A stretch of DNA of 64,000 bases from Tetramitus jugosus. Lineage: Eukaryota > Heterolobosea > Eutetramitea > Acrasida > Vahlkampfiidae. The stretch covers positions 1 to 64,000 of the forward strand of contig OW569369.1 of NCBI GenBank assembly GCA_937625935.1. Reading direction: 5' to 3'. Within the stretch, counting starts at the first letter, position 1. The number at the start of each line of letters is the position of its first letter. The notes beneath the pieces are model-generated. The model was not told the origin of the DNA. It did no database searches and saw nothing but the letters and a program-made list of their open reading frames with translations. Positions 7,859 to 59,807 of the stretch are shown here, one piece after another. Position numbers and translations under genes: made by a program.

Positions 7859-10725
7859 ATGGTTATTGTGAATGAAGAAAAAGGAGAAAAATTGTTCTTG
7901 AATCGGTGCTCTTGCACTGATGCTGATTCTCTAGTCCGAAGTGGAGAAAATTTCTTGAACTATGGTTCGGCAAACAATGTTGGTGCTACTCATATTAATC
8001 CACACTTACTCGAACAGAAGAAGGATCTATTTCTCAAGATGTACCAAGCATTGAGGCATTGAGTCAGCCAGAAACACATGGGTTCTTTTTCAGATTCATA
8101 GATAATCAACTAGATAACTTCATCAAGCAGGTCTTGAGCATAACTTGATAGTCCCTAGTAATGATACTCTGGATAGGACGGACGTTGGAAGCTATGGCGC
8201 TCCTATTGATTTTAACTGCAATTGGAGTTCATTCAAAAGCATCTAACTGTCGTCACTTCTTGATATCGTATGATGGAATCATTGTCATTCCTAGGTACAA
8301 GTTCAATGAAGGACTGGATCTCGTGCTGGGTGGAAGTGTATCATTAACTCCAGAGGAGTATGTATAGAGGGATAAGGTGAAGCTGGATGATGATCTGGGT
8401 CATGAAGTTCTTCATTTCATGTTACAGAGTTTGGAAGGTATGGTGACAGTTCGTACTGGGCATTGAGTTAAGCGAGACAGGACCCATGGAACAAAGTTTG
8501 TTATTTCCAAGTTAAAGGTGCTCGTTGATCTATTCTATAGGAAGGATATATGTGAGATAATAGCTTCATCCAGTGATGGTGATCTAGCATCAGATGCTGT
8601 CCATAAGTTTATGAATGACTACACAATTGCAAAGTATGGGACACCATGGTTCCACATGTTCGACTTTAGTCACAATACGAAGGCAACTCGTAATGCAACA
8701 ATGAACAGGCATCTACAGCCAGGTCAGCACAAGCTGCATATGAATGTATTGATAGATCTCTGCAGGAAGAGTCCAAATGTGAATGATGCTCTAGGTTTCA
8801 TACGGGACAGTTGGCTCAATCCACCAGATATCATGAAGATGAACCAAGCGTTGGGGTTAACTTCAAAACGTGTGCAGGATGCATTGAGTAACCTTCCAGA
8901 TGAGTATACACAAGAGAAGGAGATAGGGAATATGCTGAGTATTTTAGACAAATTAGACGGATGTAGGATTGCTTCATGGATAAATCCATGTCTCAAGATG
9001 AAGCAGTGACACAACTAGGAAAGGCAGATCCCTTGGGAACTATATGAGCTATATCTGTAATTGGAACAACAGTACATCACACCCAGATTCTAAGCTTGCA
9101 CTTCAAACCAGTAGACACTTGACAACGACCATCTACCAGTTCTATCTTATAGGATAGTTATATCTAATTATGCATCTCTGCTTGAAGCGAGTTGGAACTA
9201 CGTAGATTGTCTGCAGATCTGTTGTATGTACATTACCAGTGGAACTGCTGTTCTGTTGCATCCGAGGTATGCAACCATTATCATGTGTACTATCACTGAG
9301 GTTCGTGGATTATTCCGCTTCTGCGAATGTTGTGAAGCAGATTAAAGCCACAATCATGCAGAAGATTCTTTTGGGTAGATCTGAAGAAAGGAACCAGAGT
9401 GCATCTGAATCTGGAGGATGTGTTCCACTTCATGCAAATAGAACAGAGCAGTGATGTCATAAATGATGAGTGTGACGCGTGTTTTGAGGAACAGTTTGGA
9501 TCACAATATAAGAAGCCATTGATTATTGCATATTATGCTGGGAGACAGTGAACTTGAAGTTCTTCCCAGATGGCTGTCCTCGTGAGATTGCTGCTCGTGT
9601 TGAGGGTATGAGTGGAAGTGATATTCTATCTTGCAGATTCAATCCACACATCAAACCAGAAGCATGGAGTGAACAGAGTAGTGCTATCCATGGTGTTACA
9701 CCAGATGATGTTATTGGACAGCCTCTATTAGAGAATGGTGTTTCTGCGTTCTATAGATTAGTGAAAGTTAACAAGCGTTGCATACAACTCTAGTTTTGAT
9801 AAATCGAGGATCGGTAGCTGTGCATAGGAGCTTGTCAAAGAGCACGATGTGATATGGCCGGATGGAAGATGATTGATTGGCGATGAGCTAGTGTATGATG
9901 ATGACGGCAGAATAATTAACAAGCCTGCGAAGCTGTCTGAGATCTTTCAACATAGAATGAAAGAGTATGAGCAGATTGACTTGAGTCAGGTGCATGGAGC
10001 AAGGTATGACACGTATATGATGCAAAGATTATTACTGCAGAATTATGGAAGTGAAGAACTTGTGAGAAACGCAATTATAACATTGTGTAAGCAAAGCAAA
10101 GGTTCAGGATGCAAATGCTTTACCGGTTGCTCTGCATCCTGTAAGTGCTCAATTGGGTGCACACTAGAATGTAAGTGTATTGGATGTGCTATTCCTGTCA
10201 AGATCAGACCAGATCATAAACTGCCATTCGATGTTGACAAGCTTACTGTTACTGCCATCACGAAACTGCCTACACTAGAACTACAATTGTGTTTGTTCGC
10301 GAAGAACAGTGATATGAGAGGAACCAAATCTGTACTTCAAGATAGACTAGAGAAGGTTCAAAGTGGAACTACAGTTGCACCACCAACATCTGTTTCAAGA
10401 AAACTGAAGAGAGAAGCAGATGTTCAATCTGATACGTTAACTAGGGAGATTATTTTGACCATGATCAAAGAGCAGTGTATCTATGAATATCAACAGCCAA
10501 GTAGGACTATTGAGATACAAACTGCTCGAATCTGCAGATCTGCTAGAAGCGGGTGATGAATCATTGAAGACACCACGCAAGTACAATAAGAAGAAGAAAC
10601 AATCAGAACAGCCTGTAAACAAGAAGAAGAGAACTAGTAAGAAGAGAACTGCTGTAGATGCAGATATAGAAATATATAACTCTCAGCTGTCTTCCAAGAA
10701 GCCTCTCGTTGCTACAAGGATCTAG
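7859..10725 (+). pseudogene. Decayed large gene with exonuclease-, CXC- and SAP-like pieces
   Basis: Coding-like sequence continues for 2.9 kb but changes frame several times and contains in-frame stops. The 8161 frame reads through TAG near 8365 and TGA near 8464 straight into the 8518 segment. The 9.4-kb part moves to another frame ending at AYYAGRQ, then shifts again at about 9548. The 9548-9790 piece has HIKPEAW and IHGVTPDDV, which resemble the region after Exo I in DEDDh exonucleases. HGARYDTYMM near 10000 could be Exo II. A cysteine cluster (KCFTGCSASCKCSIGC) resembles a Tesmin/TSO1 CXC motif, followed by a possible SAP helix pair. The tail is Lys-rich. The most likely origin is a large transposon or virus-like gene, but no transposase is identified. 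The domain names are tentative; the decay is clear. Confidence 0.5.
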
Positions 10726-15899: not shown

Positions 15900-16389
15900 T
15901 CATCGTAACGTCTCGTAGTGCTTGATAGAATGGAGTACCTTTCGATGGGAGTCATCAACTCGTTTCTTCAATTCTTTAGCCAGCTTAGTTCCTCTTTTCA
16001 TCTCCAAGTGGAGCAAGGAAAGAATATTCTTGGAGGCATTGATGTCTCTATTGCGAGTTAAACACTTAGTGGTTGCACACTGTTTAACACCTCTAACAAC
16101 AGACTCTTTCATCAATCCTTCTTTGTCTTTTCTTTGATGCTTGACTGAAGTCAGATGACTATGACACCCACAACAAACTTGGCTCGTCAGAAATTCATCG
16201 ACCCTTTCGGTGCAGGATCGTTTTCTTGGTAACAACTCCAAAATCTTCCATTATATTTAAAAGGTCATTCATCACATCAGAACTTGCCGTCTCTTTGAAG
16301 GAAGAGGCCCTCAAATCCGGACTGCAACAAGCAAACAAAACCCAACCATAAACAACGTCAGGCATGTTTATTTTGCTGGCAAGAATCAC
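15900..16389 (-). pseudogene. Fanzor (eukaryotic TnpB-like) nuclease remnant
   Basis: The frame 16241-15900 matches the C-terminal 100 residues of the intact Fanzor at 55659-57587. It has VDEFLTSQVCCGCHSH (the Glu and first zinc-ribbon cysteine pair), the shared VVRGVKQCATTKC, and RNRDINASKN (the RuvC-III Asp), followed by a basic tail. A separate frame (16389-16195) contains SSDVMNDLLNIM, similar to the ANVMNDF stretch that lies about 80 residues earlier in the intact protein. Between them the roughly 50-residue GNAGFGHCY region is missing, and the frames do not join. All N-terminal sequence and RuvC-I are absent. This is an inactive copy. Confidence 0.75.
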
Positions 16390-55112: not shown

Positions 55113-55601
55113 TTAGGTAATAATTACTATCTCTCCAGATGAGTCTTCATCCACTTGTGTGCAAAAGTATATTCTAGCTTCTGGGTTTGCAAAAATACCT
55201 GTGTGGGATCGTAGGACACTTTCAACACCATTGAGCAAGCAAGTAAAACGGCCATAAGGTGTTGTCCAATTGGACTTCTTTGCCTCTTCGTACCCGTATT
55301 CCCCATCCACAATTAACGATACCACATCACCAGAGTAGAACTTGTCAGTCCATTTGGTGATGCTTTTCCTCGTAAAGGATCCATTGTTGGAACAACCAAT
55401 ATTTTCACCCTCAAGGAATGCTCCCAAGAAAACAGATCCTTGATCTTTTGTATACACATCCTGAAGAATGTTCTCTTCAATGATACCCAGCAACACCCAA
55501 AAAGAGGCATACAAGAAAGTGGATCTACATACTTCCACCTTGAGGTCAATTTTGGTCGTTCCTCTTGTGTTAAGGATGTAGTTCGGTGAAATAAAATCCA
55601 T
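55113..55601 (-). CDS. SPRY-like domain protein, possibly truncated
   Basis: A 162-codon frame. The order SITKWTDKFYSGDVVSLIVDG...YGRFTCLLNGVESV resembles the GDxIGxxxD...FxxNG core of SPRY domains, which mediate protein binding. No other domain is present. It begins 58 bp below the Fanzor stop and convergence is not visible. Many SPRY proteins are longer, so this may be a fragment left by the Fanzor insertion or a small stand-alone gene. The assignment is weak. Confidence 0.45.
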   Translation of the reverse strand: MDFISPNYILNTRGTTKIDLKVEVCRSTFLYASFWVLLGIIEENILQDVYTKDQGSVFLGAFLEGENIGCSNNGSFTRKSITKWTDKFYSGDVVSLIVDGEYGYEEAKKSNWTTPYGRFTCLLNGVESVLRSHTGIFANPEARIYFCTQVDEDSSGEIVIIT

Positions 55602-55658
55602 AATAAAAAAATTATGATTTCCCGAGAAGACACCTTAACGCTCCTACATAATCGGGAC

Positions 55659-57587
55659 TTACATAGCAGCTTGATGGAGTGAGCCTTGGAGGTGTTCCAC
55701 CATTTTGATTAATTCTTTTGCGACCTTTTTCTTCCTCTTGAAGGCATCGGGACGTGACTGTCCATCCATTTCTGTTCTCAGTAGATGGAGCATGTTCTTG
55801 GCCGCATTGATGTCTCTGTTGTGAGTCACTAAACATTTAGTGGTTGCACACTGTTTAACTCCTCGGACGACAGAGACATTCAACGTTCCATTCTTGTCTA
55901 TTCTCTTATGCTTGACTGGCTTCATGTGAGAATGGCAATGATGACATTTCTGACTTGTCATGAACTCGTCGATCATTTTCACTTTGAAGTGCTCATTCAA
56001 CTTTTTCAATAGCTTTCCTTTTGGTGTTGGAGCATGTCCTTTGTAACAATGACCAAAACCAGCATTGCCCATCCCAATTAACATGCTTCTTCCATTTGCT
56101 CTCTTTCGAAAGTCATTCATAACATTGGCAATCGTCTTATCTCTCATTATATAGCTATCCCAATTCAGTCTCTTCACCTTTGGGGTGCAATAAAAATTCA
56201 ACAAATCGTCCTCGACTTTCAATACAGAATTGATGTGTTCAAGGAACAGACCACTTGTAGGTACACCGGCCTGTTTGATTGAGTTTTGGAGTTCATCCAA
56301 GTTCTTCTCATTCATTTCGTTCCATTCTGCTTTGTATTTCAACAATCGCTTGGAGTTTTTTGAATGATGGGATAGATGTCTATATGTTTTGTTCGACAAC
56401 TCCCACTTCTTGCCGTCTGAATCAACACAACTCACCAAAGTAACAATACCCGGGTCAATCCCAACCAAATATTCAGCACCTTCGTTCATACTTGTTTCTT
56501 TCTTTCTCTTCTTTGCTTCTTTCTGGCCCTTGGATTCCTTTGCCTTATTGTTCTTGTGATTGCCAACGAGTTGATGTCTGAGAACAACAGAGGCCTGAAT
56601 ACCGTCAGTTCTGATAGAGTCGATTTGAATCTTCTTTATGCCAACATTCAAACACTTGAGATTGTATTTCAATTCAATGGGTTCAATTACTTGTTCATTT
56701 CCCTTCTTTTGTCCTCCTGGTTTCTTCTTCTGTTGGAGCATGTCTATCAGGTCCGTTGTACCTATCTCCATGCATCTACATTTAAAGTGGGACAAGGGCA
56801 ACAATGCAAATGATTTTGTTCCATTGCCAATCAGAAACTGTTGAACATGCCAGTAAAACTTCAGCATGTTGTTGGTGTTGTTGTTCACAAAAGATTCATC
56901 AATAATCTCGTCGGTTTCAGCACCAACAAGTGTTCGAATCTCTTGGATCAACACAGGAATAGTCTCTATCAACTCTTTTGGAGGCAGTTTGACAAAATCA
57001 TAAACTGGAGTGACGAATGTCAACCGTCTGATAATATATTCTACGACTCTTCTGTATTCAGACCATGGGATTGATTGACCATTGTGCAATTGAGCCATCC
57101 TCACTCTCAAGTACTTTCTCAGTCTTTGTTCCAATGTGAACTTGAGCATGTTAGAAATATTGACATTGAGAGACTTGGCAACGTAATTGATGGATTTGGA
57201 TAACTTCTCACAAATCTTCCTTTGCTTGATTATTACGTCATCCATGTTGACTGACCCGTTGATGAGGTTGACATTATCGTCTCTTGTCTTCGACTTGCGT
57301 CCAAACAACACTGAACCGATTCGTTGAATAAATCCTTGATTCAAGAGAGGGATATCACAATTGTTCTCCAAGTGCCTCAAAACAAATATGTTTATAAATC
57401 TTGTGAGTCGAAGAGCAATCCTTGTAATCTCCAGAGCTTGAGTTTGTATGATTGGTAACAGAGTTGGATGATGCAACAACAGAGACTTCAGACCGACCTT
57501 GACCACGTAATGTGATGAGTATTCATTCTTTTTGACAGTCTCTCTTTTTCTCTTTCTCTTACCGTCCTTAGGCACGCCTCGTGGCAT
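55659..57587 (-). CDS. Fanzor nuclease (eukaryotic TnpB homologue), intact
   Basis: Start at 57587 (MPRGVPKDGKRKRKRE), which opens with a basic nuclear-localisation-like stretch; 642 residues, no intron. The N-terminal 350 residues are helical and basic, as in the REC/WED part of TnpB-Fanzor proteins. RuvC-I is VGIDPGIVTL with D378. Two candidate RuvC-II glutamates are visible: E450 in LFLEHINSV and E541 in MIDEFMTSQKC, the latter beside the zinc ribbon, as in Fanzors reported to have a relocated Glu. The zinc ribbon is CHHCHSH...KQCATTKC, and RuvC-III is HNRDINAAKN with D592. Known Fanzors are RNA-guided DNA endonucleases carried by mobile elements, with the guide RNA encoded at the gene's 3' edge. 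No transposase or TIR is visible nearby. Confidence 0.88.
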   Translation of the reverse strand: MPRGVPKDGKRKRKRETVKKNEYSSHYVVKVGLKSLLLHHPTLLPIIQTQALEITRIALRLTRFINIFVLRHLENNCDIPLLNQGFIQRIGSVLFGRKSKTRDDNVNLINGSVNMDDVIIKQRKICEKLSKSINYVAKSLNVNISNMLKFTLEQRLRKYLRVRMAQLHNGQSIPWSEYRRVVEYIIRRLTFVTPVYDFVKLPPKELIETIPVLIQEIRTLVGAETDEIIDESFVNNNTNNMLKFYWHVQQFLIGNGTKSFALLPLSHFKCRCMEIGTTDLIDMLQQKKKPGGQKKGNEQVIEPIELKYNLKCLNVGIKKIQIDSIRTDGIQASVVLRHQLVGNHKNNKAKESKGQKEAKKRKKETSMNEGAEYLVGIDPGIVTLVSCVDSDGKKWELSNKTYRHLSHHSKNSKRLLKYKAEWNEMNEKNLDELQNSIKQAGVPTSGLFLEHINSVLKVEDDLLNFYCTPKVKRLNWDSYIMRDKTIANVMNDFRKRANGRSMLIGMGNAGFGHCYKGHAPTPKGKLLKKLNEHFKVKMIDEFMTSQKCHHCHSHMKPVKHKRIDKNGTLNVSVVRGVKQCATTKCLVTHNRDINAAKNMLHLLRTEMDGQSRPDAFKRKKKVAKELIKMVEHLQGSLHQAAM

Positions 57588-57897
57588 AATGTTATTGTAT
57601 TTGTTGTGTTGTATTTGTTGTGTGAGATGAATCAAACAGCGAAAAAGACAGCGCTTTTTAAACCGAGGTAGATGGCCGTTGCCGTTGTAAAGACAGTCTC
57701 AACGGAAATTTTTACAACTGCACCAATTCCGCAGCTTAGAGGAAACTGATACAACATTTATTGTATTTTTTTATAATATATCCACCTATCTATCCAATCT
57801 TGAACGCGACAACAACAACGAAAAACACAAGTCGCACAACGAACATCAACAACAACAATCAAATCAATCAAAAAGATGGAGAGTCGACAAGAGGTGT

Positions 57898-58550
57898 CTA
57901 TTTGCAGTGTGCATTGTAGATTCTCTGAGCAAGTTTCAAGTACTTGAGGAGAATACAAGCGGTACCAATGTGTATTGAATTCTCTTGACACCACCCTGAC
58001 CAAAGTGCTTTCTGGCTGCGGCCAAAACTTTAAACAATTGATCAGAATCGCTATTATCAAACAAATGAACCAATCTGGCAATCAAGTTCTGTTCTTCTTC
58101 GAAATCTTCGAGCAATGTTGCAGCTATTGGTGAGTCGTCAGAAGGTGAGAATGTTGTCTGGTCTTCCTCATCCTTCAACAGTGGACGAATCAAATCAAAC
58201 AGTTTGTTCACTTGTTCAAATGTTGAAATCTTGTGTCCATTGTCAAGTGCGCATCTCACAATGCTCAGTGCAATAAACTTTCTCTGTTCATATCCAAGAG
58301 AATGAATAATATCACCATACTTCTCCAACTTCAAAACTGTTAGCACATTGTTGTATGACTCGAGTGGCACCAACAACAATCGCTTCAACATGTCTACAAT
58401 TTCATCTGAAGCAAGTGCAGTGCTATTCAATTGACTAGCAATGTTATTAATAATCTTGTTGACATAGTCAGTGTTATCAGGATATGTTTGAAGAGCAAGT
58501 GTCATCAATGAGATCTGAATACTCAAGTTATCGGACAATTCAACACCTCT
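57898..58550 (-). pseudogene. VPS35: VPS35 (retromer) internal fragment with frameshift
   Basis: The frame has VPS35-specific stretches: ELSDNLSIQISLMTLALQTYP, then DYVNKIINN, LLLVPLESYNNVLTVLKL, DFEEEQNLIARLVHLF, and AARKHFGQGGVKRIQYTL.PLVF, which lie in the C-terminal half of the 800-residue retromer scaffold. No ATG opens the frame, and a stop (TAG) precedes it at 58551-58553. Near 57948 the expected continuation (LKYLKLAQRIYNAHCK, stop at 57898) is in another frame, so a frameshift separates them. Everything N-terminal to about residue 400 and the C-terminal helices are missing. It is a truncated copy; a functional VPS35 must exist elsewhere. Confidence 0.7.
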
Positions 58551-58818
58551 CTAATGGTATCAATAGTAGGACAGAATTTGACAAACGTCAGAAAACTCAC
58601 ACTCATCATCAGGTCACTCGCTCTCACGATGTCCTTCAGAGTGTTTGTTTTCTGTGCTTTTGCAAGTTTTTTTTGATGAAAAAATCTCTAATGGTATCAA
58701 TAGGACAGAATTTGACAAACGTCAGAAAACTCACACTCATCATCAGGTCACTCGCATTCACGATGTCCTTCAGAGTGTTTGTTTTCTGTTTTTTGCAAGT
58801 TTTTTTTGATGAAAAAAA
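58548..58818. repeat. 137-bp tandem duplication
   Basis: Unit 1 (58548-58684) and unit 2 (58685-58818) both begin TCTCTAATGGTATCAATA and end in TTTTTTTTGATGAAAAAA. They differ by a short TAG insertion, a CTC/ATT change in the CACTCG[CT/AT]TCACGATG region and indels in T runs. The near-identity means a recent event. The array lies at the truncated 5' edge of the VPS35 fragment and donates the ATG of the following F-box ORF. Confidence 0.9.
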
Positions 58819-59150
58819 TCAATGAACAAATGGGAAAACAAGGAAAAGGCGCCAAAAGAAGACATAACCAACACCAACAATTGGTAAAGTTTGGAGTCAA
58901 AAGAAAAGTAAGAATAACCGATATACATATTGATTTATTTGTGTATCTAGTTGGTTCGTTCCTTGGTGTAGAAGATGTGTTGAATTTGGTATTGACGTGT
59001 CGGGATTTTCGATCTTCGATAGTCAATAATCTATCAACAATAAGGTCTTATATGGACAATTTGTACTCACACTGTTTGGCCGTTTGCAAGTCAGGCTTAC
59101 CGTGCAAATTGCAAAGGAAATTTTTTGTGCCTGTTTTGATTGCTTGTTGA
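58809..59150 (+). CDS. Small F-box-like protein
   Basis: Start at 58809, in the tail of the second duplication unit; 113 residues. After a basic N-terminus (KKINEQMGKQGKGAKRRH) it has IDLFVYLVGSFLGVEDVLNLVLTCRDFRSSI, the layout of an F-box helix bundle, and then a short Cys-containing tail. F-box proteins link substrates to SCF ubiquitin ligases through SKP1. There is no substrate-binding domain, so it may be a fragment. It converges with a second F-box gene on the other strand. Confidence 0.5.
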   Translation: MKKINEQMGKQGKGAKRRHNQHQQLVKFGVKRKVRITDIHIDLFVYLVGSFLGVEDVLNLVLTCRDFRSSIVNNLSTIRSYMDNLYSHCLAVCKSGLPCKLQRKFFVPVLIAC

Positions 59151-59348
59151 ATCAACCAGTACTTGACCGCATCCTGGGCAGAACCATGAGGCAGTATTCA
59201 TTATAATACTCTTGGCTGAGACGGAACCACAGCCGGAACAGAACCATTGATGAGATGTGGCAACCATGATCGTAAGCTTGTGTTTGTGATTGGGTGTCGT
59301 GCACCTGTTTTTTTGGGCAGTCTGGAAAATTTATAGGTAGAGTTCTAT

Positions 59349-59807
59349 TTACGTTGAGGTCCAACGAACTACATCCTTAATGGGTCTCGAAGCGTTGGTG
59401 ATTCTGTAAATTTGTCGGACGTCATTTGCCGTGAATCGAAACACCTTTCCACGCTCGTCGATGATCGGACCTTGAGGGTTCATGGTTATATTGCCCTTGG
59501 AATCCATAAGGTGGGGGCTCCATCTGTGCTGTCTTGTCATCAGCACATTGTACTTCCATGTCTTACATGGAAACATTTTGTCTGTCCTTGGTCGTTGCCG
59601 CTGTTGTGCTTTCTTTTCCGATTGCACGACCGGTGGAAGGGTATCAGGTGCGGCCAGGTAGAAGAGGCGCCACTGTGTTTCAGAGTCAGCAATCTGGTTC
59701 AGACGACGATTGGCAAGGAGGATACCGAAGAGGTCTTCAACAGGCAGGAAGAGAATAAGTTCTCTTAACACATCGTCTGATAAAATAAGGAGTTTCATCT
59801 TGTTCAT
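59349..59807 (-). CDS. F-box domain protein
   Basis: A 152-residue protein. The F-box lies at residues 5-48: LLILSDDVLRELILFLPVEDLFGILLANRRLNQIADSETQWRLFY, with the usual L-P/LxxLP, D-L, C/L-x-x-R and W positions. The C-terminal 100 residues are basic with WKYNVLMTRQHRW, similar to other small protist F-box proteins, and have no LRR, WD40 or kelch. Probably an SCF adaptor; the substrate is unknown. It is convergent with the other F-box ORF, about 200 bp away. Confidence 0.75.
   Translation of the reverse strand: MNKMKLLILSDDVLRELILFLPVEDLFGILLANRRLNQIADSETQWRLFYLAAPDTLPPVVQSEKKAQQRQRPRTDKMFPCKTWKYNVLMTRQHRWSPHLMDSKGNITMNPQGPIIDERGKVFRFTANDVRQIYRITNASRPIKDVVRWTST

Follow-up and report, generated by a model that had tools for sequence, protein, structure and literature searches.

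A 3811-bp transposon that carries a gene for a Fanzor1-type nuclease lies in the 64,000-nucleotide stretch of the Tetramitus jugosus genome analysed here (contig OW569369.1, positions 1 to 64,000; hereafter the window, to whose positions all coordinates refer). The Fanzor gene is carried by a eukaryotic transposon with terminal inverted repeats (TIRs) and a target-site duplication (TSD), and we consider it quite probable that this is a DNA transposon that is not autonomous, is Kolobok-like as judged by its inverted ends, and has a Fanzor1 RNA-guided nuclease as its main gene. This view is built on features legible in the DNA: an intact multicopy open reading frame (ORF), purifying selection, an active-site signature, matched ends, the splitting of a host gene by an insertion at TTAA, the capture of VPS35 sequence, and mosaic copies. 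A Fanzor1-type gene is known in kind; the family of elements described here is unusually informative.

The Fanzor1-type gene and its product

The ORF extends from 55659 to 57587 on the minus strand and encodes 642 residues without a stop codon. An earlier sequence-only reading of the window had described this uninterrupted frame as a Fanzor nuclease with D378, D592, a zinc ribbon and a basic N-terminus, and had proposed a profile search and a structure prediction as checks; the frame and each of these features are as it described them. The third acidic residue of the catalytic triad is E541. The RuvC-I aspartate stands in a DPG motif (D378-P379-G380) that is invariant in the alignment of relatives, the RuvC-III aspartate follows an arginine (R591-D592), and the repositioned glutamate, E541, lies six residues ahead of the start of the zinc finger, which reads C548xxC551 and C580xxxxC585, the second pair being CxxxxC and not CxxC. 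According to the accessible part of PMC10711439, the DPG motif and a glutamate at this distance ahead of the zinc finger separate Fanzors from most TnpBs.

Both checks agree with the Fanzor identity. The protein matches the TNB domain of Pfam (PF07282) at 7.4e-10 (39.3 bits, cut-off 26.3) and the NCBIfam profile guided_TnpB at 2.4e-7 (30.4 bits, under its cut-off of 100). When the PDB was searched with the single sequence, the sole match up to an E-value of 1 was SpuFz1 (1e-13), and D378, E541 and D592 align with its D383, E541 and D606 (numbering in which the tagged chain is offset by 394, as counted by hand), residues named among the metal ligands in the accessible text of PMC10432273. A profile of six sequences places SpuFz1 (3.8e-24) and GtFz1 (8e-4) as the best solved relatives, with LaTranC next at 0.083. 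The predicted fold, from a low-confidence model, has six matches below 0.001, all of them chains of the three Fanzor1 proteins SpuFz, PpFz and GtFz (3e-13 to 3e-7), with TM-scores of just 0.35-0.46; next after them comes Cas12f at 6e-3. These comparisons support the product as a Fanzor1-type nuclease whose nearest solved relatives are Fanzor1 enzymes, and by profile and model it appears to lie nearer to the solved Fanzor1 structures than to other TnpB or Cas12 structures. Of the proteins returned by the searches, five are closely related, with 60-99% identity, and three are distant, with 22-24%; the catalytic residues are invariant among the relatives that are 60-76% identical. By analogy with the known Fanzor1 enzymes, the 642-residue protein would cleave DNA under the guidance of an RNA.

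Ends, insertion site and captured cargo

Similarity around the ORF breaks off abruptly in the 20 loci that were fetched, and the similarity of the long copies stops at about the positions of two perfect 16-bp inverted repeats, TTAAGGATGTAGTTCG, whose outer bases are 55570 and 59380. The whole transposon is accordingly placed at 55570 to 59380 on the minus strand, both TTAA copies included; in the orientation of the gene, its left end is 59380 and its right end 55570. The right TIR occupies 55570 to 55585 (plus strand) and the left TIR 59365 to 59380 (minus strand), each with its TTAA. With up to one mismatch allowed, this type of end occurs at 21 genomic places, 19 of which are exact; for a second type, TTAAGGTGGCSGTCYAC, the figures are 39 and 37, and the backward-read control gave one place for either type. 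The ends form 19 inverted pairs separated by 2-5 kb, seven of the first type and 12 of the second, and each of them encloses Fanzor matches. Both ends are of the same type in 14 of the 14 elements that were written out, and all 14 have TTAA at both ends and GG..CC termini; these elements were picked by patterns that contain TTAA, and the insertion in the window is the independent case for it. In seven compact copies (L010-L014, L025 and L027), the match to the window is confined to about 55595-57749; these copies delimit a Fanzor cassette (55598 to 57749, minus strand) that is common to copies with different outer ends. Four end sites have no nearby Fanzor or right-end match (C11:254181, C15:15258, C25 and C47). 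At L042 (C25) and L043 (C47), a right-end piece of 36-40 bp with its TTAA stands alone, and nothing else of the element is present.

The host flanks of the window element, when joined at one TTAA, give an open frame (...RITNASRPI-NTRGTTKID...), and all four homologues of the host gene that were found (49-55% identical) are uninterrupted at the insertion point, with RPINT invariant. Therefore, the element was inserted at a TTAA, which now stands on both sides, and has split the host gene into a 5′ part (59381 to 59807) and a 3′ part (55113 to 55569), both on the minus strand. The 5′ part is F-box-like, with a weak match of 9.5e-4 and 19.4 bits that is slightly under the Pfam cut-off of 20.5.

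The element has also captured VPS35 sequence (57908 to 58590, minus strand), in which an ORF at 57936-58538 matches Pfam Vps35 at 1.7e-41. A query of 189 residues taken from this frame has 25 genomic matches at 22 places, 21 of which adjoin Fanzor matches; the match at C22:83317 (L040) lies away from Fanzor, in a frame of 450 residues that we presume to be the host gene. The piece in the window is 98.25% identical in DNA to this gene over 686 columns, and the capture therefore seems to be rather recent. The VPS35 part is missing from the seven compact copies. A possible second captured fragment (58779 to 59150, plus strand) is weakly F-box-like, at 0.034 and under the cut-off. At the edge of the VPS35 piece, 58548-58684 and 58685-58817 are tandem repeats of about 137 bp that are 95% identical; some copies have both, and L015 has one.

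Copy number, selection and mosaic copies

The 642-residue protein has 64 genomic matches, of which 20 span residues 1-642, one of these with a stop codon. The remaining 19 are open and encode 19 distinct proteins, no two identical, two of them (L018 and L023) with altered C-terminal tails. All 27 genomic matches to the TNB domain coincide with matches to this protein. In six pairs of genomic copies, the ratio of nonsynonymous to synonymous substitution rates (dN/dS) over the whole coding sequence is 0.15-0.18, the pairs with L036 being near saturation; as shown by these ratios, the multicopy ORF is under purifying selection. The sequence-only reading had suggested a solo or domesticated copy, that is, a Fanzor gene serving the host, and the intact ORF under purifying selection in an element without a second frame of transposase size would fit such a role. 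However, the gene is neither single-copy nor free of transposon ends: about 20 full-span copies exist, with matched ends and TTAA at both ends, at differing insertion sites, one of which splits a host gene. For the family, this suggestion is thereby contradicted, and we regard domestication as very improbable.

On nucleotide comparison, the copies are recombination patchworks with breakpoints within the Fanzor ORF. Compared with the window, the ORF of L036 differs at 578 of 1599 positions in nucleotides 1-1650 and at one of 201 in nucleotides 1726-1926, and that of L037 differs at 583 of 1599 in nucleotides 1-1650 and at none of the last 201. The core differences of L021 (157/1632), L025 (335/1638) and L016 (166/1635) are accompanied by one, one and no differences in the last 201 nucleotides; in each of the five comparisons, this segment thus has one differing base at most. 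The identity of L036 to the window returns to 91-97% upstream of the ORF, and Fanzor cores with DNA identity as low as 59-68% stand between near-identical flanks. The changes in identity also occur inside the core. L016 differs from the window at 4 of 220 positions at the start, 137 of 663 in nucleotides 226-900 and 13 of 675 in nucleotides 976-1650; L021 differs from it at 18 of 595 in nucleotides 226-820 and 128 of 600 in nucleotides 1051-1650, a segment in which L021 and L025 have just 13 differences in 603. At the protein level, the last 67 residues are matched at 38-43 of 65-67 positions in P0002-P0005, at all 67 in P0006, a fragment with 99% identity, and at 67 of 67 in L021, L025, L036 and L037. 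The tail is divergent in P0002-P0005 yet identical in these four genomic copies and is therefore not simply constrained by the protein. Fisher tests for the tail give 2e-7 to 2e-37, values that treat sites as independent and are hence indicative only. Assembly error seems an unlikely origin of the mosaics, since identical types of mosaic are seen at more than one locus (L021-L023; L016 and L019).

Two further Fanzor sequences were observed. The window itself has a second, decayed C-terminal fragment at 15957-16211 (minus strand), 60% identical, in a frame of 116 residues, and L039 (C32:2808-4989) is a divergent Fanzor element with 38-45% protein identity, the end type of the window element and a frame split in two.

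Candidate right-end RNA, mobilisation and related systems

The right-end module (55570 to 55860, minus strand), which comprises the end of the ORF and its 3′ tail, is the candidate region for an omega RNA or right-element RNA (reRNA). The segment 55574-55800 has 36 genomic matches, 32 of which are 94-100% identical over the matched part, and a near-identical right end is found even in copies with 66% protein identity. Seven of the 36 are relic-like and adjoin only short Fanzor pieces or none (C52, C4:597967, C35, C8:461472, C24:126214, C10 and C38:437245). The fold predicted for 55570-55720 on the minus strand has −36.8 kcal/mol, with a z-score of −3.25 against 200 shuffles, none of which was as low. 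In this candidate structure (55570 to 55638, minus strand), UUAAGG (the complement of 55633-55638) is predicted to pair with the terminal CCUUAA (the complement of 55570-55575), and the TIR and TTAA would close it. The closing helix is predicted in three of the four right ends that were folded (L009, L021 and L039); L039 has a hairpin of other sequence at the equivalent place, and a comparison of L009 and L039 by eye gave one two-sided change.

According to the accessible text of PMC10711439, Fanzor1 scaffolds are predicted to include the TIR and TSD, and reRNAs extend about 15 nucleotides beyond the TSD. By this anatomy, the predicted guide is the first 20 nucleotides of host flank past the TTAA (55550 to 55569, minus strand). 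These 20 nucleotides differ in 21 of the 21 copies examined, and the TTAA-guide sequence of the window has no other genomic occurrence within three mismatches. The target-adjacent motif (TAM) of GtFz1 is given as TTAA (PMC11423790); one sentence in the accessible part of that paper swaps two TAMs, and its mutation test together with the corresponding part of PMC10432273 gives TTAA for GtFz1 and CATA for SpuFz1.

As the sequence-only reading had noted, no associated transposase is present in the window element, and no transposase-sized gene was found in the five elements whose frames were listed, the largest non-Fanzor frame being 234 residues. A TTAA duplication with 5′-RR..YY-3′ termini marks Kolobok as against piggyBac, and Naegleria is among its protist hosts (PMC9587614, accessible text). 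The TTAA and the GG..CC termini fit this description and suggest a Kolobok-like element; the assignment is made by the ends alone because the searches, run without a Kolobok query, gave no transposase with such ends. A less likely alternative is that the element is of piggyBac type and is mobilised by a piggyBac transposase resident in the genome, a view that concerns the mobiliser only and is compatible with the rest of our explanation. Such a mobiliser would suit the TTAA target, and PF13843 has 12 genomic matches, the three read having open frames of 616 (L033, C34), 692 (L034, C18) and 581 residues (L035, C39). However, GG..CC ends are of the kind given as the mark of Kolobok, and neither TTAAGG-type nor clear TTAA inverted ends were seen around these three of the 12 places.

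Other searches for a mobiliser gave little. THAP had no match anywhere, controls included, and is uninformative. A looser end pattern found 60 exact sites, of which 57 were already known and three are unpaired; at one mismatch it found 148 sites versus 312 for the backward control and is hence uninformative. A 1535-residue protein on C36 was considered as a transposase and set aside, as no TTAA inverted ends stood out. It is the open frame of L041, which is related to a relic at 8518-9009. This relic falls in a region of the window (8518-10556, plus strand) with fragments of a large gene; they include a stretch rich in cysteine (by eye) and have no Pfam match, and another relative, on C14, is 93% identical over 139 residues. 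Among viral contigs, 86 pattern matches were found, none of them a relative.

In the Fanzor-bearing transposon that we propose, a transposase encoded elsewhere would move the element in trans. Folding of the transcript's 3′ end, with the TIR and TTAA in the scaffold, would yield a guide RNA, the guide portion of which would be the neighbouring host flank. Once the element is excised, the nuclease would cut the vacated TTAA-flank site, and repair templated by a homologue still carrying the element would restore it, by which copies would be retained.

Several observations weigh against this explanation. Because TTAA stands at both ends, the predicted guide matches the element's own right junction, and the occupied junction also reads TTAA followed by the guide match. 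If the TAM were TTAA alone, cutting would extend to the occupied site, which is the weakest step of the proposal; either the TAM is different, or the context of the right end blocks cutting, or self-cutting occurs. In addition, the minimum-energy fold of L010 is without the closing helix, both ends were not seen at the mismatch limit used in six of the 20 loci, and the right end of L026 reads CCTTGG and not CCTTAA. The AlphaFold model is poor, with a mean predicted local distance difference test score of 55.3 and a predicted template-modelling score of 0.49. Finally, the genome yielded no transposase whose ends match, in searches that used no Kolobok query and read three of the 12 piggyBac places.

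If self-cutting occurs, the family might homogenise itself, with guide-directed cutting at an element's own right junction starting repair from other copies. We think this rather unlikely; if true, the right-end RNA module would be overwritten repeatedly and divergent Fanzor cores exchanged, giving one scaffold for many interchangeable nucleases. The nuclease might also be passenger cargo, the identity of the right ends arising from transposase-binding sites and ordinary repeat recombination. Nuclease activity is so far inferred, and repeat recombination can yield mosaics without a nuclease. However, the low dN/dS and the invariant catalytic residues of the relatives argue against a passenger, and the VPS35 cargo is only a gene fragment, whose match is partial at six of the 21 element places; we give the passenger view little probability.

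The transposon that we favour ties Fanzor to TTAA and RR..YY ends. We found no paper joining Fanzor or TnpB with Kolobok, a weak absence given that subscription literature was thinly covered. In one genome, 19 intact Fanzor1 proteins, all different, have a right-end RNA module in common; the DNA identity of their cores runs from about 59% to near-identity, and relic loci keep the right end. This genome makes it possible to test how protein and RNA are matched, how the TAM is chosen and what part Fanzor plays in the retention of transposons.

Among known systems, SpuFz1 and its element Spu-1 of Spizellomyces punctatus resemble the window element in being Fanzor1 with an aligned D/E/D site, in having one ORF between inverted repeats with no transposase between them, and in their many full and partial loci, as far as the accessible text goes (PMC10432273); the relic loci of Spu-1 without an ORF resemble the seven relic-like right-end loci here. 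The differences are that the single-sequence similarity to SpuFz1 is mostly in the C-terminal half, that its TAM is CATA whereas the window element ends in TTAA, and that the window family has a captured VPS35 fragment and swapped ORF cores. GtFz1 of Guillardia theta is also Fanzor1, and its TAM equals the insertion site here; however, its third catalytic residue is N in place of D592, its profile match is the weaker of the two, and its loci are reported in the accessible parts of PMC11423790 and PMC10432273 to be without inverted repeats, unlike the window element. The chimeric Fanzor1 elements MCi-2 and DFa/PPa are modular, with one part common and another differing, as here (PMC3627910, accessible text), whereas the breakpoints of the window family are inside the Fanzor ORF; the word TTAA has 0 occurrences in that text. 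Kolobok transposons have the same TTAA duplication and RR..YY ends (PMC9587614, accessible text); the likeness is one of ends, and no Kolobok transposase was found here in searches without a Kolobok query. The Fanzor1 elements of insect viruses, which we liken by their description, are viral and have TTAN, whereas TTAA is fixed here. According to the accessible text of PMC3627910 and PMC10711439, they have short TIRs of 13 bp, a 4-bp duplication of TTA type, no transposase and no assigned superfamily, as here, and their TIR and TSD are predicted to lie inside the reRNA scaffold (PMC10711439), as we predict for the element of Tetramitus jugosus.
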